Shown piece after piece: positions 25,801 through 40,336 of a stretch of DNA of 64,000 nucleotides. Within the stretch, counting starts at the first letter, position 1. Each line of letters begins with the position of its first letter. Below the pieces are notes generated by a model. It worked only from the letters and a program-made list of their open reading frames with translations. It was not told the DNA's origin and did not search any database. Made by a program: the position numbers and the translations under genes. The DNA is from Archangium gephyra (GTDB taxonomy: Bacteria > Myxococcota > Myxococcia > Myxococcales > Myxococcaceae), in NCBI RefSeq assembly GCF_001027285.1, contig NZ_CP011509.1, positions 4,906,501 to 4,970,500 on the forward strand. The letters run 5' to 3'.

Positions 25801-28800
25801 GGGCGACCGGACCGATGTGGTGCGCAGCTTCGCGGACATCCTCCGCCAGCGCCCCTCCGACGTGGACGCCCGTGCCGCGCTCGAGGGGATGCTCGGCTCC
25901 GGCAACGCCCGCGAGGAGGCCGCGCGCGCCCTCATTCCCGCCTACGAGGCCACGAAGGACCATCGCAAGCTGGTGGCCGCGCTGGACGTGCTCGCCGAGG
26001 TGGCGCGCGATGACGCGGCCCGGGTGCTGGTGCTCCGTCAGGCCGCGCAGGTGCACCTGACGCAGCTGCGCCAGCCGGAGCTGGCCTTCGCCTCGCTCGC
26101 CCGGGCCCTGCGCCTGGCACCGGGGGACATGCCCCTGCGTGCCGCCGCGCGCCAGGCCGCCGAGGACGCGGACTCGCTGGACGCCTACGCGGAAATCATC
26201 ATCGAGCTGACGGAGGAGGGGAGCGTCGGTCCCGCCCGCGCGGGGCTGCTGCGCGAACTGGCCGAGGTCCAGGAGAAGAAGCTCGACGACCGGGATGCCG
26301 CGCTGAAGTCGCTCCGCGCCCTGCTGGCGCTGGAGCCGGGCAACCTCGACTGCCTGCGCTCGCTGCAGCGCTTGCACCGCGCGGGTGAGGAGTGGGCCGC
26401 GCTCGCCGAGGTGCTGGAGAAGCTCGCCGCCGCCGCGCCCGAGGTGGCCGAGCAGCTCGCGTACCTGCGCGAGGCCGCCCTGCTGCACGAGTCGAAGCTG
26501 GCCGACAACGAGAGCGCCGCCGCCGCGTGGCGCGCCATCGCCGAGAAGGATCCGCTCCAGCGCGAGGCCGCCGTCGCCCTGGACCGGCTCTACGCGGAGC
26601 TGGGCCGAGAGAAGGACCTGGCGTGGGCACTCGGCCTGCGCAAGACGCAGGAGGGACAGAGCCCCCAGGGCCGTGAAGTCTCCTTCCGCCTCGCCGAGCT
26701 GAAGCGCACCCGGCTGGATGACCCCAACGGCGCGCTCCAGCTCTACCAGGGCATCCTCGCCGAGGACCCGGGCCACCCGGGTGCCCGCTCGGCGCTCGAG
26801 GAGTGGGTGAAGGCCGCCGTGCCGATGAGCGCGGGCGCGCTGGAGGTGCTCGATCCCGTGCTCGCGCGGCTGGGCGATCATCCGCGCCGTGTGGCTCTGC
26901 GCGAGGCGCGCATGGCCTCCGCCCTCAGCGCGGAGAAGGTGCAGCTCGCCGCGGACATCCGCCGCATCTACGAGCAGGACATGCAGCAGCCGTCGCTCGC
27001 CTTCATGGCGGCGGTGAAGGCCTTCTCGCAGGGCGTGGATCGCGAGGGCCAGCAGCCGGAGCTGGAGCGGCTCGCGCGCGAGACGGGCTCCTTCGAGATG
27101 CTCGCCGAGCTGTACGAGGAGGCCGCCTCGGATCTCCCCGCTGGTGATCCCTCGGGGTTGGGCCTGCTGCGCCGGTCCGCGGACCTGCGCGAGCAGCTCG
27201 GCCAGACGGAGGAGGCCACCAGCGTCTGGAAGAAGATCCTCGAGGACGCGCCGCAGGATCGGCAGGCGCTCGAGGCCCTCTCCCGCCTGTACGAGCGCGG
27301 GCAGAACGCCAAGAGCCTCTCCGAGGTCTACGCCGCCCAGTCGGCGCTGGTGACGGACCCCGAGGCCCGGCGCGCCCTGCTGGTGAAGTCCGGTGAGGCC
27401 TACGCCGCCGCGGGTGATGACGCCAAGGCCATCGAGGCGTGGCGCTCGGCGCTGGCCATCCGCCGGGCGGCCGACGGACTGCTCGCGCTGGACAAGCTGT
27501 TCGCCAAGACGCGGCGCTTCGCGGAGCAGGCGGACGTGTTGGATCTGCTCTCCGAGATGGCCACGGACGCCGAGTCGCGCCGCGGCTTCATCCTGCGCCG
27601 GGCCCAGCTGGTGGAGAAGGAGGGCAACCACGCCGAGGCGCTGAGCGCGTACCGCGATCTGCTGGCGCTGACGCCGGGAGATCCGCAGTCCGTCGCGGGC
27701 CTGGAGCGCATGCTCCAGATCGAGGCGCAGCGCGTGGAGGCGGCGCGGCTGTTGGAGCCCGTCTACCGCGGGCTCAACGACACCCGGAAGCTGGTGGAGG
27801 TGCTGGAGCTGCTGCTGCCCGTCACGTCGCCCGCGCGGCGGCTGGAGCGCATCCAGGAGATCGCCACCCTGCGTGAGGCGCTGGGCCAGACGTCGCTCGC
27901 CTTCGCCGCGCGCCTGCGTGCCTTCAACGAGGCCCCGCAGGGCGACGGCGTGCGCGATGACCTGGAGCGGCTCGCGGCCGACTCCGGCTCCTTCGAGGAG
28001 GTGGCGGCGGCGTACGAGGATCAGCTCGAGCGTGGAACCACCGAGCCCCTGGCGGGCGATCTGTGGCGGCGGCTCGCGGGTATCTACGACGGCCGCCTGA
28101 AGCGTTACGATCTGGCGGTGCGGGCGCTGGAGGAGGTCAGCCGGCGGGATCCGCAGAACAAGCAGGTGCTGGAGTCCATCGCCCGCGTGCACCGGCGTAC
28201 CGGTGCCAACCGCGAGCTGGCGCTGGCCATGCGCCGGCAGGTGACGGCCGAGCCGTCCGTGCCCGCGCAGGTGAACCTGCTCTTCGAGCTGGCCCACATG
28301 GCCGAGGAGACGCTCTCCGACAAGGCGCTCGCGGCGCAGACGTACCGGGACATCCTCGAGCGCCGGCCCGAGGACGCCAACGCGCTCAAGCTGCTGGGCC
28401 GCGTGCTGACGCAGATGGAGCGCTGGCCGGAGCTGGCGCAGCACATCGAGCGGGAGATCCAACTCGCCGACGCGCGCAAGGCCCAGGAAGAGGGCAGCGA
28501 GCTGCGCGTGCGCCTGGGCCGCCTGAAGTTCAGCCGCCTGGATGATCCGCGCGGGGCGCTGGAGCTGTACCAGGACGTGCTCCGCCGCCGCGAGGGACAC
28601 CCGGGTGCGGTGGGCGCGCTGGAGGAGATGGCGCGCTCGGAGAGCCCGCTGCGTGGCCAGGCCGCGCTGGCGCTCGAGCCGGTGTTCGCGTCGGTGGGCG
28701 ACCACCTCAAGCAGGTGCAGATGCTGGAGTCGCGCGTCTCCGCCGAGCCGGTACCCCAGGAGCGCGCGGCACTGCTGCGCCGCATCGCGGAGACGTACGC

Positions 28801-31800
28801 GGGCCCGCTGGACAACGCGGAGATGGCCTTCCTGTCCGCCACGCGTGCGCTACGGGACGCGGCGGATGATACCCGCACGCTGGAGCTGTGCCTCTCGCTG
28901 GTGGACAAGGCGGGAGCGGCCGAGGAGTTCGCGGCCGTCCTCTCGGAGATTGCCCCTCGGGCGGGTGACACGGCCCGTGCCGAGCTGTACCGGGCGCTGG
29001 CCCGGCTGCAGGCGCGCCTGGGCGAGGACGACGAGGCGCTGGCCTCATGGCGCAAGGTGCTGACGCTGCGGCCCACGGACACCGACGCGCTCGACAGCGT
29101 GGCGCGGCTGGTGGCCGATACGGGCACGCCGCAGGAGTTGTTGGAGGTGCTGCGCCGCCAGCTCGCGGGCGCCGAGGATCCGGCCCGCCGGGCGTCGGTG
29201 CTGCTGCAGATCGCCGTTCTCCAGGAGGAGAAGCTGCAGGACGGGCTGGGCGCACTGGCCACCCTGCGGCGCCTGCTGGACGTGAAGCAGGACGATGCCG
29301 CCGCGCTCACGCGGATGGACGCCCTGTGCCAGAAGCTGGAGCGCTGGCCGGAGATGGCGGACGTGCTGTCGCGCCGCATCGCGCTCGTGACGCCCGAGGA
29401 GGGGCTGGAGCTGCGTTTCCGCCTCGCGGTGCTGCGCGAGACGAAGCTGCTGGACAAGGCGGGCGCGCTGGCGCTCTACGGCGAGGTGCTCTCGCTGCAG
29501 CCCAACCATGCCGGAGCGGTGGGCCGGTTGGAGGCGCTGGTGAACCGCGAGCCGCAGAACCTGCTCGCGGTGGAGACGCTGCTGCGCGCCTTCCGGGCGA
29601 GCGGGGACGTGGCGCGGCTCGCGTCGGTCATCGAGACGCGGGTGGGCGTGTCGCCGGACGCCTTCGAGCGCAAGTCGCTGCTGGGCGAGCTGGCCACGCT
29701 GCGCGAGAGCCAGGGCGAGCCGGAGCTCACCTTCCTGGCCCTCTTCCGCGCCTTCAAGGAGGACCCGAACGACGGCGCACTGCGTACACGGCTGGAGAGC
29801 GCCACGGACGCGGCCGGCTCGTACGACGAGCTGGTGGTGGCCTACGAGGAGTCGTTGCCGCGCGTGGCCGAGGCCAAGGACGCCTCGGACATGTGCCTCA
29901 AGCTGGGCCACCTCTTCGAGGCGCGCCTGCAGGAGCCCGAGCGCGCCGTCGTCTACTACGAGCGAGCGCGCACGCTGAACCCGGCGGCACAGCAGAAGGC
30001 GCTGGTCGCGCTGGATCGGCTGTACGTGGCGCTGGAGGCGTGGCCGGAGCTGGCCAACGTGCTGGAGGCGCTGGCCTCCTCCGCGGAGGAGAAGGCGGAC
30101 AAGGTCGGCTTCCTCTTCCGCCTGGGCCAGCTGGTCCAGGAGAAGCTGGACGGCATGGATCGCGCGGCCTCCGCGTTCGAGCAGGTGCTGGCGCTGGAGC
30201 CGGGGCACCTGGCCTCGGCGCGGCTGCTGGAGACCATCTACGACTCGGCCGGCGCGCACGACAAGCTGTACAACATCCTCAAGTTGCAGTCCGAGCGCGT
30301 CACCGGCCCGGAGCGTGAGCGGGTCCTCACGCGCATGGCGCAGGTGTCCGCCGAGGGTCTGGATGACCTGGACCGCTCCATCGAGCTGTACCGCGAGCTG
30401 CTGGCGAAGAACCCCCGCAACGAGCAGGCGTTCACCGCGCTGGAGGGCCTCCTCGAGAAGTCCGGCCGGCACGAGGAGCTGCGCACGCTGCTGGCGGATC
30501 GCCTGTCGCAGACGTTGGATCCGCGTGAGGTGGTGCGGCTCAACGAGCGGCTGGGCCGGGTGCTGTACCGGCTGTTGAAGCAGCCCGAGGCGGCGGTGAG
30601 CTACCTCAAGGCCGCGCTGGACCGCGACGCGCGGCACCGGGGCGTGCTGGACACGCTGCGCGAGCTGTACGAGGAGACGGGGCAGGCCGAGGAGTTGGTG
30701 GGCATCCTGCGGCGGCTCGTCCCGCTGCAGGAGTCGGCCGAGGGCGTGAAGGCGCTGCGCCTGCGGCTGGCCGAGGTGCTCTCGGGCATGGGCCGCCGCG
30801 AGGAGGCCCTGGACGCGGCCCGCCGCGCGCTGGAGGTGGAGCCGCACGCGGTGGCGGATCTGGAGCGTGTGTACGCGCTCTTCGTCTCGCTGCGCGCCTA
30901 CAACGACGCGGTGCGCGCGCTCGAGCTGAAGGTGCAGGTGCACCAGCAGGCCGAGGAGCGTGAGCAGGCGGTGGCCGCGTGGTTCGCGGTGGCGGACCTG
31001 TGGACGGGCGCGGGCAACAAGCCCGAGCTGGCCGGCGGCGCGCTGGAGAAGGTGCTGGAGCTCGACCCCGCCAACCCCACGGCGTACGCGCGCGTGTGCG
31101 AGCTGTACCGGACGCACAACGACTGGCGGGCCTACGCGCAGGTGGTGGATCGCTACCTGCCGCACCTCGTCACGGAAGAGGAGAAGCTGGCCACCCTCAA
31201 GGAGCTGGCGAGGGTGCAGGAGCAGCGGCTCGGCCAGAAGGACGTGGCCTTCCTGGCGCTCTGCCGCGCGCTGCAGATCGACGCGTCGGACGACACGCTG
31301 CGCGAGGAGGTGGAGCGGCTCGCCGACGAGACGGGCTCGCACGAGGAGCTCGCCGCCGTCTACGAGGAAGTGGCGGACGCCCTGCCGCGCGGTCCGCTGG
31401 CCGAGCGCATGTACGCCACGCTGTCGCGCGTCCATGACCTGAAGCTGAACGATGCGCAGGCGGCCGAGGCGGCGCTGCGGAAGATCCTCGAGTTCGACCC
31501 GACGAACGCCACGGCGCTCGATGGGCTCGCGGGGATGTTCCAGCGGCGGGGCCGTGAGCGCGAGTACGTGGTCGCGCTGGAGCAGAAGCTCGAGGCCGCC
31601 GGCTCCATCGAGGCGCGCAGGGGCATCCTCCGGGAGATCGCCCGCGTCTTCGAGGAGCAGGGAGACCCCGACGAGGCCGCGAGCGCGCTGCTGCGCTCGT
31701 TGGACCTGGAGCCGGACACCGAGACCCTGGGGGTGCTCACCGAGCTGTACCGCCGCCAGAAGGCGTGGCGCGAGGTGGCCTCCACGCTGCTCCGGGCGCG

Positions 31801-34800
31801 TGACCTGGCGGCGACCGTGGAGGAGCGGGCCCGCATCCAGATCGAGGTGGCGAACGTCTACGAGCGCGACATCGGCGACGACGAGGCGGCGGTGGCGGCC
31901 TTCCGTCAGGCGCTCGAGTTCGAGCCGTACAACCTCCAGGCGCTGGAGTCGATGGAGCGCCTGTACACGAAGCTGGATCAGCCGGCGGAGCTGCTCGGCA
32001 TCTACGAGCGCATGCTCGAGGTCGTCGGCGACTACCGCGAGCGCGTGCGGGTGATGTTCCGCTGCGCGAGCATCTGGGAGGACAAGTACCAGAACCCGGC
32101 CAACGCGGACGCCTTCATCGAGGGCGTGCTGGCCATCGATCCGCAGAACCTGCAGGCCATCAAGACGCTGATCCGCCTGCGGCGCGTGCAGGCGCGGTGG
32201 GAGGACCTGGTCGTCGCCTACGAGCGGCAGCTGCAGCTGGCCACGTCCACGCAGGAGCAGGCCGAGCTGTACGTGGAGGTCGGCAACGTCTACCACCAGC
32301 AGCTCAAGCAGGTGGACCGGGCGGTGAACACGTACCACCACGCGCTGGAGGTGGACCCCGGGTGCCGGCCCGCGCTGCACGCGCTCGGCAAGCTGTACGA
32401 GCGCAGCGGCAACTGGCCCTACGCCCTGGACGTGTTGCAGCAGGAGGCGCAGCTGGCCGGCGCCGCGCCCGACGCGGTGGAGCTGTACTACCGCATGGGC
32501 AAGATGAACGAGGACATGCTGATGGACACGGGCAGCGCCCGGACGGCCTATCAGAACGCCCTCTCCATCGACCCGGGCCACCTGCCCAGCATCCGCGCCC
32601 TCAAGGGCATCCAGGAGCAGGAGAAGGACTGGGGCGGCTACGAGCAGACGCTGCTCCAGGAGGCGCAGCAGACCGAGGACGCGGAGGCCAAGGCGCGCTC
32701 GCTGCTCGAGGTGGCGCGCTACAACGCCGAGACGAAGGGCGATCCGGAGATGGCCACGGCCTACTACGAGGAGACCCTCAAGTACGCCCCGGACAGCCTG
32801 GAAGCGGCGCGTCCACTCGTGGATGTCTACAGCGCGCGGGAAGACTGGGTGTCCGCCGAGCGGATGCTCGACATCGTCGTGCGCAAGATGGCGGAGAAGG
32901 CCATCGCGGAGAAGGACCAGGCGCTCGCCGCGGAGCTGTGCCGGCAGCTGTACCGGCTGGGCTACGTGGCGGACAAGCTGGGCAACCGTGACAAGGCGCT
33001 CGCCTCCTACAAGAAGGCGTACGACCTCGATGCCACCTACCTGCCGGTGCTCGAGGGCTACGGCCACATGCTCGTGCAGCACGCGAAGCGCTACGAGGAC
33101 GCGCTGCGCATCTTCCAGACCATCCTCATCCACCATCGGGAAGAGCTCACCGACATGGAGGTGGTGGAGGTCTACTGGCAGCTCGGTGACATCCACGCGA
33201 AGCTGAACCAGGCGGATCGCGCGCAGAACCACTTCGAGAAGGCGCTGGCCGTGGACCCCAGCCACGAGGCGTCCCTGCGTGCGCTGGTGGCCCTGATGGA
33301 CCAGGGCAGCCGCTGGGAGCGGGCCGCCGAGCTCCGCCAGCAGCTCGCCCAGGTGCTGGAAGGGGAGGCGAAGGCCCGGGTCTTCCTGGAGCTGGGCCAG
33401 CTCGCGCGCGAGAAGCTGAAGGATCCGTACCAGGCCATCGACGCGTACACCGGCGCGCTCAAGCTCCTGCCGGAGTCGCTCGAGGTGCTGGACGCGCTCT
33501 ACGTGCTGCTGCGTGAGACGCGCCAGGGCCAGAAGGCCGCGGACATGCTGGATCGCATGCTCCGGTTGCCCGCGCTCACCGCCGAGCCCAACAAGGCCAA
33601 GCGGGTGTGGTTCGCACTCGGCGAGCTGCGCCGGGACGAGCTGCGCGACGTGGATGGCGCGGCCGTGGCCTTCAACACGGCGCTGGACCTGGACCACCGC
33701 TTCATCGAGGCCTTCAGCGCCCTCGAGGCGATGCTGGGTGGCGCGGGCAAGTGGAAGCCCCTGGAGGAGAACTACGCGAAGATGCTCGGGCGCATGCCGA
33801 AGACGCCCGACACGCATGGCGCGCGCATGGGGCTGTGGCGGGCGCTGGGTGACCTCTACCGCCAGGTGTTGAAGAACCAGGAGGGCGCGGTGGCGGCCTA
33901 CGGCGTCGTCGCCAAGGGCCTGCCGGACGACGCGCAGGTGCAGGAGGTCTACGCCGAGCTGGCCGCGGCCTCTCCGGGCAAGGAGGACGAGGCCATCGCC
34001 GCGCTCCGCCGCGCCCTGCCCAACACGACGGATCCGCGCAAGGTCGTCTCGCAGCTGGTGCGTCTGTCCGCGGTGCGCAAGGACTACGACGGCGCCTGGA
34101 TGGCCGCGCAGGCCGCGGCGGGGCTGCTCGGCGAGGCGGGGGATGACGAGAAGGAGATCCTCACCAAGCTGGGGCCCTACGCCAAGCGCAAGGAGGTGGC
34201 CCAGCGGCCGCTGTCCGACCAGATGTGGCTGACGCACCTGCTGCACCCGAAGCTGCGCGGGCCGCTCACCGAGCTGATGGGGCTGCTCTTCGTGCAGGTG
34301 GGCCACCTGTACGCGGTGCCCCACCAGAACTACCAGATCGTCCCGAAGAAGCACCGGGTCGACCTGGCGAGCGCGCAGGAGTACCACGTGCAGCACTACC
34401 GGTACGTGGCGCGCCTGTTCGGCCTGGACGCGGTGGAGCTGTACTCGCCGCACCTGGTGGTCCGCCGCGAGAACATGGCCAAGCGCTCCAACGAGCCGGC
34501 GCCGGATCCGCTCGTCAACGTGGAGGTGCTGCAGACGCACCCGGCCTGCGTGCGCGCCGGTGGGCGCTTCTTCGCGGAGCAGGGGCAGCGCGAGGCGTAC
34601 TACTTGCTGGGGCGGACGCTCGCCCTGGTGCGTCCGGAGCTGGCCATGAGCCAGCGGCTGGTCCCGGAGCGGCTCGAGGCCGTGGTGCAGGCCGCGCTGA
34701 GCCTGGTGGTGCCCAACCTGCGCTTCACGGTGGACCCGCGGCTGGTGGACGCCGAGCGCCGGGTGCTGGAGAAGGCCTTCAGCGAGCCGGGCCGCGCGGC

Positions 34801-35077
34801 CCTGGCCAAGGTGGCGCGTGTCTACTTGCCCACGGCCACCCCGGCGGATGTTCGCCAGTACCTCGAGGGCGCGGAGCTGACGGCCGCGCGCGCCGGCCTC
34901 TTCGCGGCGGGCGAGTGCGAGCCCGTCAAGCGCATGGTGATGGGGGAGACCGGTTCGGCCTTCCGGGTCTCTCCGAAGGTGAAGTTGAAGGAGCTGCTGC
35001 TGTTCGCCACGTCCGACGAGCTCCGCGAGCTGCGTGTCGCGGTAGGTACGGACGTGGAGGTGCAGGTAAGGAAGTAG
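22811..35077 (+). CDS. gltI: Giant TPR gliding motility protein GltI (AgmK)
   Basis: A single uninterrupted frame of 4088 residues. Nearly the whole protein (to about residue 3800) is an array of degenerate TPR/HAT-like helical repeats of roughly 34-40 residues, with recurring motifs such as [19 protein letters not shown] and [20 protein letters not shown]. The last 288 residues (from [13 protein letters not shown]) are not repetitive and look like a separate globular domain. There is no signal peptide, so a cytoplasmic location is expected, consistent with reports on GltI. In Myxococcus xanthus AgmK is a giant TPR protein of similar order, also followed by agmX. ATG 22811 follows a terminator-like hairpin by 17 bases. 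The role is as a scaffold of the gliding complex; a direct activity is not visible. Confidence 0.85.
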
Positions 35078-35122: not shown

Positions 35123-35231
35123 GTTGAAGAAGCAACCGGGCGGGCGAGAGCGGCATCCTTGACCCCCCCGGGTGCCACCTCTACGATTCCGGCGGATTTT
35201 CTGCCGTCTTTTCTGAGAGTTGCGGGGAACG

Positions 35232-37307
35232 ATGCGTTTCGTCTGCGATAGCTGCCGCGCGCAGTACATGATTAGCGACGACAAGGTTGGCGCGAAGGGC
35301 GTCAAGGTCCGTTGCAAGAAGTGCGGCTACAACATCGTAGTCCGCCCAGCCGGCTCCGAGCCGGTCAAGGAGGAGGGGACGAGTGGTGAGGCCGCTGGCG
35401 GTGCGGCCGCGTCCCAGGGTCAGTCGGCCAACGACGGCTTCGGGTTGCCCCCGACGCTGGGCACGCCTCCCGAGGGCGGCATCTTCAGCGGTGTCGAGGA
35501 TGACGAGCTCGGAGCCGTGTTCGACCAGGTGCTCAACTCCGGGTCGCACCGGATTCCGGCGGGCGAGGCCTCGGGTCCGGCGCAGCTGGATTCGTCGGCC
35601 CTGTCGGACGCCGGCGAGACGGTGCGCAAGCTCGCGGAGGCCGAGGGGAACGCGAAGTCCGCGGCCTCGCACGAGTGGTTCGTCGCCATCGACGAGAAGC
35701 AGGTCGGCCCACTGTCGATGGACAAGGTGAAGGACTACTGGGATCGGGGCGAGGTCGGTCCTGACAGCCTGTGCTGGCGCGCGGGCTTCAGCGACTGGAT
35801 TCCGCTGTCCGAGGCCTCGGAGCTGGCGTCGGTGCTGGCGCCGCGTCCGACGAAGCCGGTCATCGTGGAGCCCGCGCCGATGGCCTCGTCCGCGCCGGTG
35901 GCCTCCGGGCCGGTCGAGTCCGCCTTCGCCAGTGGCCTGGCGAAGCCGGCGAAGTCCGACACGCCCGCGCCCGTTCCGACCGCGCAGGAGACGGGCTGGA
36001 AGCCCTCGGCCGCGAGCGTGCTCGCCTCGCTGGTGAAGGAGGAGAACGAGGCGCTGTCGAAGCCCGCGTCCAAGGCGGCGCCAGTGGAGGAGAAGAAGGG
36101 CAAGCCGGCGGCCTTGGGGCTGCTGGATGTGCCTCCGCCGGAGTCCGCTCCCGGGGCGGCGCAGAGCCCGCTGATGGCCGAGCCTCCCGCGCCCGCGCCG
36201 TACCTGCAGCCCGCTCCGGCGCCGGCCTACGCGCAGCCGCCTCCGCAGGCGTACGCGCAGCCGATGGCCCAGCCGTACCCGCCGCCCCAGCAGTACGCGC
36301 CTCCGGCTCAGCAGTACGCTCCGCCTCCGGGATACCCTGGCTACCCGCCGCAGGCCGCGCCCGCGCCGAAGCAGGGCGGGAAGATGGGGATGATCATCGG
36401 CGCGGTGGCCGTCGTGCTGTTGCTCGTCGGAGGGGGCGCCTTCTTCGCGACCCGCTCGTCCGAGCAGCCGACTCCCGTGCCGCAGCCCACTGGGACGCAG
36501 CAGATGGCCCAGGCGCCGGCCAAGCCGGTGGAAGCGCTGCCCATGCCGCCTCCTCCGGCGGCGGTGGCGCAGAACACCGCCACGCCCGCGGCGGGCACCA
36601 CGGCCCAGCCGGCCGCCACCCAGCCCGCCACGGCGCCAGCGACTGCACCCACGACTGCTCCCGCGGTCGCCGCGGCGGGGACGCCTGGAACCACGACGGC
36701 GACGCCTCCACCTGCTACCGAGCCGGTGAAGCCCGCCGAGCCTGCGAAGACGGAGCCGCAGCAGGTGGCCCGCGCCGAGGTGCCGAGCAAGCGGACGCCG
36801 ACCACCCCGGTCAGCCGTCCAGCGCCCTCGCGCACCTCGAGCGACGACGAGGAGCCGGTGCGGAGCAAGCCGCAGCCCGCCAAGAGCGGCGGGAGCGCGG
36901 ATGACGAGTTCGATGAGCTCTTCGGCACGAAGAAGCCCAGCTCCAGCGCGAAGAGCGACACGGTGTCGGCGAACGGCCGTACGGCCTACATCCCGCCGGA
37001 GCCTGGCGGCGGTGGTGCGGCGCAGGAGAAGCTCGGGCAGTCGGACATCATGCAGGTGGTGCTGGCGAACAAGCCGGCCATCATCAAGTGCGTGAACGAG
37101 CAGAAGAAGAAGGATCCGGGCCTGAGCGGCAAGCTGGTGATGCGCTGGACGATCCAGACCAACGGCAAGACGAAGAACGTGTCCTGCCAGACGTCGGAGT
37201 TCCGCACGACCTACATGGCGACCTGCATTTCGGGGCTCATCAAGGGCTGGAGCTTCCCGAAGCACAAGGTGCAGGGCGATCCGATCGATTTTCCGTTCAC
37301 GTTCTAA
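35232..37307 (+). CDS. gltJ: Gliding motility protein GltJ (AgmX)
   Basis: A 691-residue inner-membrane protein. Residues 1-38 are a zinc ribbon (C5, C8, C28, C31: MRFVCDSC and VRCKKC). About 148-200 is a GYF_2 domain (EWFVAIDEKQVGPLSMDKV). A long Pro/Ala/Gln/Tyr-rich linker precedes one membrane helix (about 385-406), then a Pro/Thr/Ala-rich periplasmic spacer and a C-terminal AgmX/TonB-like domain (about 600-691, ending PIDFPFTF). This order is the known layout of GltJ, whose cytoplasmic zinc and GYF domains are reported to engage polarity regulators and the motor. ATG 35232 has GGGGA upstream; an in-frame TTG four codons earlier is less likely. Last gene of the cluster; a long inverted repeat follows the stop. 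Confidence 0.88.
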   Translation: MRFVCDSCRAQYMISDDKVGAKGVKVRCKKCGYNIVVRPAGSEPVKEEGTSGEAAGGAAASQGQSANDGFGLPPTLGTPPEGGIFSGVEDDELGAVFDQVLNSGSHRIPAGEASGPAQLDSSALSDAGETVRKLAEAEGNAKSAASHEWFVAIDEKQVGPLSMDKVKDYWDRGEVGPDSLCWRAGFSDWIPLSEASELASVLAPRPTKPVIVEPAPMASSAPVASGPVESAFASGLAKPAKSDTPAPVPTAQETGWKPSAASVLASLVKEENEALSKPASKAAPVEEKKGKPAALGLLDVPPPESAPGAAQSPLMAEPPAPAPYLQPAPAPAYAQPPPQAYAQPMAQPYPPPQQYAPPAQQYAPPPGYPGYPPQAAPAPKQGGKMGMIIGAVAVVLLLVGGGAFFATRSSEQPTPVPQPTGTQQMAQAPAKPVEALPMPPPPAAVAQNTATPAAGTTAQPAATQPATAPATAPTTAPAVAAAGTPGTTTATPPPATEPVKPAEPAKTEPQQVARAEVPSKRTPTTPVSRPAPSRTSSDDEEPVRSKPQPAKSGGSADDEFDELFGTKKPSSSAKSDTVSANGRTAYIPPEPGGGGAAQEKLGQSDIMQVVLANKPAIIKCVNEQKKKDPGLSGKLVMRWTIQTNGKTKNVSCQTSEFRTTYMATCISGLIKGWSFPKHKVQGDPIDFPFTF

Positions 37308-37447: not shown

Positions 37448-37533
37448 GCCGCGCGCTGCAGGACGGAGGGGGCCTGAGTGAGTGGCCGGAGGCCCGCCTC
37501 GTGCGACGTACCCATTCAGGAGGAAGTCGAAAC

Positions 37534-38391
37534 ATGCAGCTTCGCAAGATGACGTTGATGCTCGCCGCGCTGGGCGCAATGAGCATGGTGCTGACGGGTT
37601 GCCCGGACGGTGGCCGTGAGAGCCTGACGTGTACGGCGGACACGGACTGCATCGAGGGTGAGATCTGTCACCCGGGCGCCAAGGTGTGCGTGCAGACCTG
37701 TACCTCGGGCGCTGATTGCCCCGAGTCCTCGAAGACCTGCGAGGTCATCAGCTCCACGAACAGCACCAAGGTCTGCCAGTGCAGCACGGACGCGCTGTGC
37801 CAGCGTGACGAGCGCATCAGCGATGCTTCGGGCCTGAAGTGCTCGACCACCCACAAGGTCTGCACGGACGGTGACACCACGCCCACGCCCACCACCTGCT
37901 CGGGTGAGGGTCAGAGCACTTGTGCCTATGGCCAGTTCTGCAGCGGCACCACGTGCACGGCGGTGCCTGCTCCGACCTGCGCGAACTTTGACCCTGCTCA
38001 GGGTGGTCGCGCGCCGACGTTCAATGCAGCGACGTCTACTGGTCCGATCATCTATGACGTGACGCAGGTGTCCTTTGCTCAGGACTCCTTCTGTGGTGAT
38101 GGAACTGCTGGGTCGACTGGCCTGACCGCCAAAGCTCGGGTGAAGGCCTACATCAAGACGGGTACTTTCCCGGCTGAGAAGAGTGGGCTTCCCGGCCTGT
38201 TCTATGTGCGTGTCAATGGTACCCAGGTGGATGGTACCACTCTGATCCGCCCCTCTGAGTACACCACGGCGGAAGCTGGTAAGCGTGCGGAATTCACCAT
38301 GAACTTCTGCCCCGGCTCGACTGCTACGACGCTCTCCATCGGTCTTTACTTCACCGGTGGTAACGAGATCTGCAAGCAGCTCAACCGCTAG
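37534..38391 (+). CDS. Cysteine-rich lipoprotein of unknown function
   Basis: A 285-residue predicted lipoprotein: basic start, hydrophobic core and lipobox VLTGC at about residues 19-23. Residues about 30-160 hold many cysteines in short spaced pairs (CTADTDCIEGEICHPGAKVC and similar), a pattern of disulphide-rich EGF/Dickkopf-like modules frequent in myxobacterial surface lipoproteins. The last 120 residues (from about NFDPAQGGRAP) look like one beta-sandwich domain. The base composition shifts within the gene: the second half uses many T-ending codons. ATG 37534 has AGGAGG upstream, which decides the start over an in-frame GTG at 37501. A terminator follows. The role is unknown; a surface or matrix protein is a reasonable guess. 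Confidence 0.75.
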   Translation: MQLRKMTLMLAALGAMSMVLTGCPDGGRESLTCTADTDCIEGEICHPGAKVCVQTCTSGADCPESSKTCEVISSTNSTKVCQCSTDALCQRDERISDASGLKCSTTHKVCTDGDTTPTPTTCSGEGQSTCAYGQFCSGTTCTAVPAPTCANFDPAQGGRAPTFNAATSTGPIIYDVTQVSFAQDSFCGDGTAGSTGLTAKARVKAYIKTGTFPAEKSGLPGLFYVRVNGTQVDGTTLIRPSEYTTAEAGKRAEFTMNFCPGSTATTLSIGLYFTGGNEICKQLNR

Positions 38392-38610: not shown

Positions 38611-39126
38611 ATGTCTCTCAAGATCGCGTCTCGCACTCTCTTCATTCTTGCCATGACTGCCGCGCCTGTGGCTTTGGCGGAAGGGGCATCCAGCACCAAC
38701 TCTGCTCAGGATGTGCGCCTCGCATGCCCAGCGGGTACTGTGCAAAAGGGGCGGAAGGTGTCGAAGACTGATGGTTCCTTCTGCGTGAAGGTCGGTTCCA
38801 AAAAGGATGGAGAGGCGCAGCTGCATGGTCCTTATGTGGACTTCCACTCCAACGGGCAGAAGCAGTCGGAGGGGCAGTACTCTGATGGCGCCCGTGCTGG
38901 TCTCTGGACTTTCTGGGACGCCAACGGTGTGAAGACCGGTGAGACGCAGTTCTCGGGGGGCAATTATCACGGCAAGCGCGTGGAGTATTTCTCCAACGGA
39001 AAGCAGCGCCTCGTCGAGGAGTACGCGAACGGTAAGCGTAATGGCCTCGTCCAGGAGTTCTCCGAGGACGGGAAACTGGTTCGTCAAGCCCAGTATCGCG
39101 ACAACGAGCAGGTCGTTACGAAGTAG
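38611..39126 (+). CDS. Exported MORN/YwqK-like repeat protein
   Basis: A 171-residue protein with signal peptide (cleavage probably after VALAEG, about residue 24). The mature part contains four or five short repeats of the YwqK/MORN_2 type, for example GPYVDFHSNGQKQSEGQYSD, GLWTFWDANGVKTGETQF and GKRVEYFSNGKQRLVEEY. Such proteins are often auto-annotated as antitoxins, but the repeats are a general beta-hairpin scaffold and this copy is exported, so an antitoxin role is unlikely. No toxin gene lies beside it. It stands alone between two terminators. ATG 38611 has AAAGGA upstream. Confidence 0.75.
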   Translation: MSLKIASRTLFILAMTAAPVALAEGASSTNSAQDVRLACPAGTVQKGRKVSKTDGSFCVKVGSKKDGEAQLHGPYVDFHSNGQKQSEGQYSDGARAGLWTFWDANGVKTGETQFSGGNYHGKRVEYFSNGKQRLVEEYANGKRNGLVQEFSEDGKLVRQAQYRDNEQVVTK

Positions 39127-39149
39127 CGGAGCTGCCTCGCGGTGACTCC

Positions 39150-39188
39150 CAGAAGGCCCTCTCCGAGCAGGCGAGGGCCTTCTGCTTT
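39150..39188 (+). terminator. Rho-independent terminator
   Basis: CAGAAGGCCCTC (39150-39161) pairs perfectly with GAGGGCCTTCTG (39173-39184), with a C then TTTT after it. This is the clearest intrinsic terminator in the window and ends the YwqK-like gene. Confidence 0.9.
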
Positions 39189-39232
39189 TCCGGAAGCGCT
39201 TCCCTCGGTGAGCGGGCTCGGCTAGAAGCCCA

Positions 39233-40336
39233 GTGGTGAAGTTCCCGCCTACTATCCCACAGTTGCCCGATATCCCCGTTTGCACCGTGGCGGACATGGG
39301 CCTCCGCGAGCTTGAGCGCATCCGGCTCATCCTTCGAGGTGGCTCGGTCATCGACTGGCGGCGGATGCACTTCCAGAGCCGGGACGAAGTCGACCGGTTC
39401 CTCCGGCTCTGTCAGATCGACACCTCTCAGCCCGAGGACGAGGCCTGGGCTCGCACTGTCCTCGCCGATGCGGTCGAGTACCTCCGTCAGACCTTCGACT
39501 ACCGGGTCGCGGATGCTGTGGCGGATCCGGAGGAGATACACGATCTCTTCCTCTATGCCTCCGGAGTGAAGGGGCTCCCGAGACATCGCCGCATCGCCTG
39601 CATCGTGCTCAAGGTGATGCATGTTCTCCAGCACATCGAGGGCCGGGACCTGATGCATCGCTTGGCTGTCTCCGAGGCGGATCTCTCCGATCTGGTGACC
39701 GCCAAGGTGTTGGGTGTGGCGCAACTGCTCCGGGACAAGGGGCTCCCTGTTGCCGAGTTCGCGCACTCCATCAAGTCGCGCGAGTCCCTCATCACTAAGC
39801 TGCTGGCCAAGAAGGAAACGGTTGCGGCTCAAATCTATGACCGGACGCGCTTCCGCATCATCACCCAAAAGCCGGCAGAGATTCTCCCGGTTCTCTACTT
39901 CCTGACGCAGCACCTCTTTCCCTTCAACTTCGTCGTCCCTGGCCAGACCGAGAACACGCTCGTCTCGTTTAAGTCTGTGCTTGAGGAGAACCCCCACCTC
40001 CAGCAATTCGCCCAGCATCTCCATCTGGACCTTGATTACGAGGATCGCGAAGAGCGCACCCGCAACCTGTTCTCTGGAAACACCTACCGGGCGTTGAACT
40101 TCGTCGTGGATGTGCCTGTCAGGATGGATGCGTACCTGCCGCCACCGGCGGAAGATACGCGCGAGCGCAAGAACCGGACGGTTTTCACGCTCGTGGAGTT
40201 CCAGATCATGGACGAAGAGACCGCTCGCCAGAATGAGGAAGGCGAGAATGCCCATAAACTCTACAAGCGCCGACAGAAGCGGCGTGTGCTGCGTCGCCTG
40301 TCACGAGGGCTTGTCGTTCCAAAGCGGCAAGGCTGA
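39233..40336 (+). CDS. Diverged RelA/SpoT-like protein (TIGR04552-type?)
   Basis: A 367-residue cytoplasmic protein starting at GTG 39233 (or the next GTG). By memory it resembles the uncharacterised myxobacterial family TIGR04552. Its C-terminal half follows the order of motifs of a RelA/SpoT nucleotidyltransferase domain: HSIKSRESLITKL (178-190, compare RxKxxxSIxxKL), YDRTRFRII (202-210, compare xDxxGxRII), YRALNFVV (285-292, compare YxALHxVV, with Asn for His) and VEFQI plus EGENAHKLYK (321-345, compare VEIQI and the HxxYK end). The Glu and Gln of ExQ are kept. Between YRAL and VEFQ there is an insertion of some 20 residues. The N-terminal 170 residues are unfamiliar. Possible activity: pyrophosphate transfer to a nucleotide or RNA, or a dead regulator. 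Confidence 0.55.
   Translation: MVKFPPTIPQLPDIPVCTVADMGLRELERIRLILRGGSVIDWRRMHFQSRDEVDRFLRLCQIDTSQPEDEAWARTVLADAVEYLRQTFDYRVADAVADPEEIHDLFLYASGVKGLPRHRRIACIVLKVMHVLQHIEGRDLMHRLAVSEADLSDLVTAKVLGVAQLLRDKGLPVAEFAHSIKSRESLITKLLAKKETVAAQIYDRTRFRIITQKPAEILPVLYFLTQHLFPFNFVVPGQTENTLVSFKSVLEENPHLQQFAQHLHLDLDYEDREERTRNLFSGNTYRALNFVVDVPVRMDAYLPPPAEDTRERKNRTVFTLVEFQIMDEETARQNEEGENAHKLYKRRQKRRVLRRLSRGLVVPKRQG

Follow-up and report, generated by a model that had tools for sequence, protein, structure and literature searches.

The roles of the active-site positions compared here are established for the alarmone synthetases RelQ, RelP and Rel, and in the small alarmone synthetase (SAS) enzymes the beta-1 Arg stacks the donor adenine. 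By published signatures, (p)ppGpp enzymes carry AVR in syn2 and SxH in syn3, and (p)ppApp enzymes carry RYT in syn2 and GxN in syn3 (PMC12226406). The toxSAS tRNA pyrophosphokinases, CapRel and FaRel2, belong to the same superfamily. The Glt G1 gliding cluster of Myxococcus xanthus (gltD-J) has been defined as MXAN_4870-62, with gltJ as its last gene (PMC3169522). In the open literature that we searched, the genes after gltJ are nowhere discussed functionally, and we found no mutant or interaction data for them.

Here, we describe a gene downstream of gltJ in Archangium gephyra, within a 64-kb stretch (hereafter the window) of a 12.49-Mb myxobacterial chromosome that carries the Glt G1 gliding cluster, and consider what its product may do.

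A catalogued protein family in most Myxococcota

The gene at 39233..40336 (all features located in the window lie on its plus strand) is an intact open reading frame with a GTG start that encodes a 367-amino acid TIGR04552-family protein, combining a predicted RelA/SpoT-fold nucleotidyltransferase with an N-terminal domain of its own. It matches the NCBIfam profile TIGR04552 over positions 3–352 of 352 with 411.6 bits (E = 2.9e-123), far beyond the 125 bits that its curators set as threshold, and its closest named orthologue is that of Archangium violaceum Cb vi76 (96%). The preliminary description had seen here a diverged RelA/SpoT-like nucleotidyltransferase and possibly a new alarmone-type enzyme. 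The relationship holds, as both PF04607 and Foldseek return RelA/SpoT proteins, but the sequence family is not new, being already catalogued as TIGR04552/TIGR04562 with no assigned function. What the present analysis adds to those entries is the RelA/SpoT fold, the change at the acceptor site and the linkage to glt genes.

The gene is single copy in the A. gephyra genome and occurs in 157 of 195 Myxococcota genomes (~80%), or in 128 of the 149 good ones. Both halves of the protein are under strong purifying selection, with a dN/dS of 0.03 against close Archangium orthologues and of <0.17 at 77% identity. Beyond the Myxococcota, the range is based on one publication (PMC9888234) and one sequence record. 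The publication names the gene in Bdellovibrio sp. NC01 and reports a one-base deletion in it among the high-frequency mutations of one evolved line (PMC9888234), so the gene is not essential there in laboratory coculture. The record (L133; MW495066.1, 111573-136562) is titled 'Microcystis phage MaAM05' but looks bacterial (fabI, engB, glyS, secDF, acpS, scpAB), and it encodes a relative with the canonical YRSLH. Searches of plasmids and of viral contigs gave no relative, and the sole hit under a phage name is this record. A Myxococcus-type orthologue at 73% identity also stands in a genome record titled Comamonas sp. KCTC 72670 (L053), whose label looks wrong or whose assembly looks mixed.

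Fold and motifs of the carboxy half

RelA_SpoT (PF04607) is the sole Pfam match of the protein (E = 1e-5), with 26.2 bits just under the gathering cut-off of 27, and scores 28.9 bits in the genome search with frame neighbours included. In a sample of 43 non-redundant Myxococcota relatives, reaching down to 35% identity, 20 match RelA_SpoT at E 0.01, and no other Pfam family is matched. An AlphaFold2 model built from the 43-member alignment (pLDDT 88.5, pTM 0.86) places the motifs on the expected strands and helices, and its best Foldseek matches are small alarmone synthetases or Rel (RelP 6ex0, 2.8e-6); on these two grounds the residues named in the preliminary description would cluster in a pocket. 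In VIA-align, model residues 145–346 superpose on RelQ (5ded_E) with a Z of 10.8 and 3.0 Å over 146 residues, far above the first unrelated structures, DNA polymerases at Z 5.7. Aligned profile to profile, the family and the Rel synthetase domains of myxobacteria match over residues 146–347 (E = 7e-5; reversed control 0.055). Sequence searches of the PDB gave only chance-level matches with the single protein as query, and with the family profile a sole, non-significant match to RelP/YwaC in the right register (E = 0.13). At the level of fold and motif, these predictions support well that the carboxy half, with a synthetase-like domain at residues 146–351 (39668..40285), is a RelA/SpoT-type nucleotidyltransferase: the modelled synthetase fold comes together with the metal Asp, the catalytic Glu, the Lys/Ser/Lys set and the stacking Tyr of the superfamily.

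Five motifs had been noticed in the order typical of alarmone synthetases, and when the protein was shuffled 200,000 times, a regular expression that encodes all five in this order never matched. The first motif, K181xxxS185xxxK189L (39773..39802), corresponds by conservation and profile-profile alignment to the phosphate-binding block of RelA/SpoT enzymes. It is followed by D203xxR206xR208 (39839..39856), which holds the metal Asp and, at D+3, an Arg as in adenosine-type enzymes; by N278-x-FSG..Y285xxLN289 (40064..40099), the equivalent of the G-loop with Asn for His; and by E322xQ324xxD327 (40196..40213), with the catalytic Glu. The last, N334..G337..H341xxYK345xR347 (40232..40273), was proposed to be a RelA-type end motif from its HKLYK sequence, and the profile-profile alignment agrees, pairing the ExQ and H..YK blocks with Rel blocks that include AHWxYK. 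These blocks are kept across the relatives: K181, K189, D203, R206, N278, S281, E322, Q324, D327, H341 and Y344 are invariant in 43/43, and S185 (42/43), Y285 (40/43) and N289 (40/43) are nearly so.

An insertion had also been suspected before ExQ. It amounts to ~60 extra residues, with Pfam RelA_SpoT positions 3–112 stretched over residues 180–348, and in the profile-profile alignment it lies mostly before Y285 and partly before E322. Pro236, Asn241 and Asn278 inside it are additional residues invariant among the 43 relatives. The protein ends in a strongly basic tail (40274..40333), residues 339–367 containing 12 Lys/Arg and zero acidic residues, and nowhere in its 367 residues is there a hydrophobic stretch of sufficient length or strength to form a membrane helix.

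The acceptor site

Compared with RelQ (SAS1) and RelP (SAS2), the protein has the same predicted fold over residues 145–351 (Z 9.7–10.8) and the same Lys/Ser/Lys, Asp, Tyr and Glu-x-Gln residues, but it is without the beta-1 Arg and the G-loop His and carries the insertion, the N-terminal domain and the basic tail. Residue 179, which takes the place of the beta-1 Arg two positions before the first Lys, is Ser, Gly or Asn in 43/43, so donor binding must differ from that of the SAS enzymes. NxFSG stands where the RFKDYI..PK G-loop block would be. The exchange of the usual His after YxAL, read from the single sequence, extends to the family, Asn289 being present in 40 of 43 members; one Myxococcota member (L061) has His. 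In two genomes (G066 and G068; L144 and L147), a second TIGR04552 paralogue reads YRHLD, with Asp at this position. The Bdellovibrio-type member keeps the canonical YRSLH and DLVGVR (DxVGVR), which links the family with canonical enzymes and suggests a later date for the change from His to Asn.

The invariant Arg206 at Asp+3 occupies the place where (p)ppApp synthetases carry Arg. Set against the Apk signatures RYT, GxN and YH, the family equivalents are R-[FY]-R for syn2, [AV]-L-N ([AV]xN) for syn3 and [IL]V, a partial match. By published signatures (PMC12226406), the likeness to adenosine 3'-pyrophosphokinases (Apk2, MuF toxins) thus lies in the Arg-Tyr/Phe of syn2 and the x-x-Asn of syn3, whereas syn4 differs; the A. 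gephyra protein is no polymorphic toxin, and we saw no immunity genes. The acceptor pocket is remodelled and leans to an adenosine-type acceptor. Because Apk2 kept its specificity after syn motif swaps (PMC12226406), the motifs serve as a weak pointer to the acceptor only. SxH in syn3, the RxKDYI..PK block and the beta-1 Arg, all features of (p)ppGpp synthetases, are absent from the protein; in contrast to CapRel and FaRel2, it has neither an antitoxin nor a pseudo-zinc-finger domain and is encoded by a core chromosomal gene. Lacking defining features of each group, it should be filed under neither.

The N-terminal domain

Residues 1–145 (39233..39667) are predicted to form a helical domain with GxSVxDW and ACxxLKVMHxxxH motifs, and are helical also when modelled alone with AlphaFold2 (pLDDT 84.6). 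The preliminary description had called the N-terminus unfamiliar, and Foldseek against the PDB indeed gave no match under E 0.001, nor under E 1. The best VIA-align candidate, RbcX (Z 5.8 at 12 Å rmsd), was rejected as helix packing.

Two members from one genus (L137 and L138; genomes G167 and G166) keep the N-terminal motifs and have lost K181, D203, R206, YxxLN, Q324 and HxxYK; L137 still scores 178 bits to TIGR04552. Judged by these residues, they are a pseudo-enzyme lineage, and since the N-terminal motifs outlast the catalytic residues there, the domain seems to serve a separate function. For the A. gephyra copy, a dead regulator had been entertained, which we consider unlikely: with its catalytic residues invariant and a dN/dS of ~0.03, this copy is not dead.

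Linkage to the Glt gliding genes

Upstream in the window lie gltG (18100..20025; FHA and TonB_C; NF033760, 1013 bits at G000:C1:4924600-4926522) and a gene for a giant TPR protein at the gltI/agmK position (22811..35077), recognized by TPR models and named by its position and size (PMC3169522). The conserved upstream partner is gltJ (AgmX; 35220..37307), whose product has a zinc ribbon, a GYF domain and an AgmX/PglI tail (NF033761, 893.6 bits; cut-off 450). Between gltJ and the TIGR04552 gene are an open reading frame for a Cys-rich lipoprotein-like protein (37501..38391), with a similar one in 9 of 39 loci, and the immediate upstream neighbour, a MORN_2 repeat protein gene (38611..39126; PF07661, 8.5e-13). 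A terminator-like hairpin followed by CTTTT (39150..39189; −33.6 kcal/mol over 39140–39200, z −3.5) separates the MORN gene from the TIGR04552 gene; a consensus scan does not list it. In this genome, the TIGR04552 gene is probably its own transcription unit. Convergent genes including ffh lie beyond it, and a Big_5/BNR protein is also among the neighbours. Elsewhere, the genome holds a long Rel and a second diverged RelA_SpoT open reading frame (G000:C1:663104-663529; L002:1354-2214; 286 aa, 29.8 bits), which has DLGRFRIV and EVQI motifs and falls outside TIGR04552.

Among the matches listed, 111 Myxococcota genomes have both genes; in 98 of these, the TIGR04552 gene follows gltJ in the same orientation, at gaps of 73–5718 bp; most of these 98 are Myxococcaceae-like (family f1), and the count does not equal independent events. 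The same linkage is found in families f3, f6, f8, f9, f13, f17, f24 and f25. Less than about 35 bp separate the gene from the gltJ-like stop in several deep lineages. In the Myxococcaceae, 2 kb and a terminator-like hairpin stand between gltJ and the gene, and family f2 has it after gltG and a CglE-like gene. Thus the gene is found just past gltJ or beside gltG, and is not counted in the published M. xanthus cluster. The link is not obligatory: family f11 has gltJ-like genes and no TIGR04552 gene, the gene is unlinked to glt in several families and on the Bdellovibrio-type contig, and Bdellovibrio, which has the gene, is without gltJ (PMC3169522). A co-occurrence test is uninformative, because the gltJ and gltG profiles match nearly every Myxococcota genome. 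Linkage to the glt cluster is the strongest functional clue.

Two individual loci have other neighbours. In one (L084:2128-4853), the sole case seen, the TIGR04552 gene is directly preceded by a long RSH gene, two genes up, and a CglE-like gene; in another lineage (L063:6451-7305), the gene overlaps or abuts an upstream gene for a Stp1-type PP2C phosphatase.

Discussion

Our preferred reading, to which we give a probability of about one half, is that the TIGR04552 protein is an active pyrophosphate-transferring enzyme tied to the Glt gliding and envelope machine, with a putative acceptor, and is not a toxin-antitoxin toxin. We infer a catalytically competent, cytoplasmic member of the RelA/SpoT nucleotidyltransferase superfamily that would take pyrophosphate from ATP and place it on the ribose of an acceptor, at the 3' position. 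Since the pocket is unlike that of (p)ppGpp synthetases and partly adenosine-like, an adenine nucleotide or an RNA 3' adenosine would be likelier than GDP or GTP. Control of the enzyme probably falls to the N-terminal helical domain, which would dock onto or sense a partner. Given the position of the gene beside gltJ or gltG, the enzyme's product, or the modification that it makes, most likely acts on the Glt machine, tuning it or coupling it to nucleotide status. A more specific version, in which the protein is built into the Glt machine as a nucleotide second-messenger or RNA-modifying pyrophosphokinase with a new adenosine-type acceptor and N-terminal control, is rather unlikely in its entirety.

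The neighbourhood could instead reflect inherited gene order only, the enzyme serving an unrelated housekeeping role. The hairpin and two intervening genes in the Myxococcaceae fit this, as do the unlinked families and the Bdellovibrio-type contig, but linkage to gltJ on the same strand across about nine families, at gaps that vary widely, and a separate gltG neighbourhood, lead us to consider it somewhat improbable. On another reading, the protein would serve the Glt complex chiefly in a structural or regulatory capacity, with catalysis secondary, as in the lineage that lost the catalytic residues and kept the N-terminal motifs; that loss is confined to one genus against invariance in the 43 aligned members, and we regard such a role as very improbable.

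The chemistry itself may also be read differently. The protein might still make (p)ppGpp, as a small alarmone synthetase that is specialised to feed the stringent response or development and whose acceptor pocket is unusual. RelQ and RelP are its nearest folds, non-Asn members exist (the Bdellovibrio-type relative with YRSLH and DxVGVR, and the His of L061), and one locus has the long RSH gene two genes upstream; yet Asn in 40/43, the missing RFKDYI..PK block and beta-1 Arg and the long Rel already in the genome make this unlikely. A tRNA 3'-CCA pyrophosphokinase with toxSAS-like chemistry, which would put a regulated brake on translation and be no toxin-antitoxin toxin, could use the basic tail to bind RNA, and would suit the partly adenosine-like pocket and the structural match to CapRel (Z 6.0). 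CapRel, however, falls below ordinary SAS and near the unrelated polymerases, no antitoxin adjoins the gene, a PADLOC search gave no significant match and the distribution is that of a single-copy core gene (157/195 genomes), so that we judge this quite unlikely. The toxin raised by the preliminary description finds no support for the same two reasons of neighbourhood and distribution.

If active, this family with an alarmone-synthetase fold, found in ~80% of the Myxococcota genomes examined and beside gliding genes, with no assigned function, would form a third branch next to the (p)ppGpp synthetases and the toxins. In predatory bacteria, it could connect motility with nucleotide status. The glt linkage suggests a nucleotide-based step in the gliding machine; if the enzyme were indeed built into it, alarmone-type chemistry would be directly linked to a bacterial motility motor.
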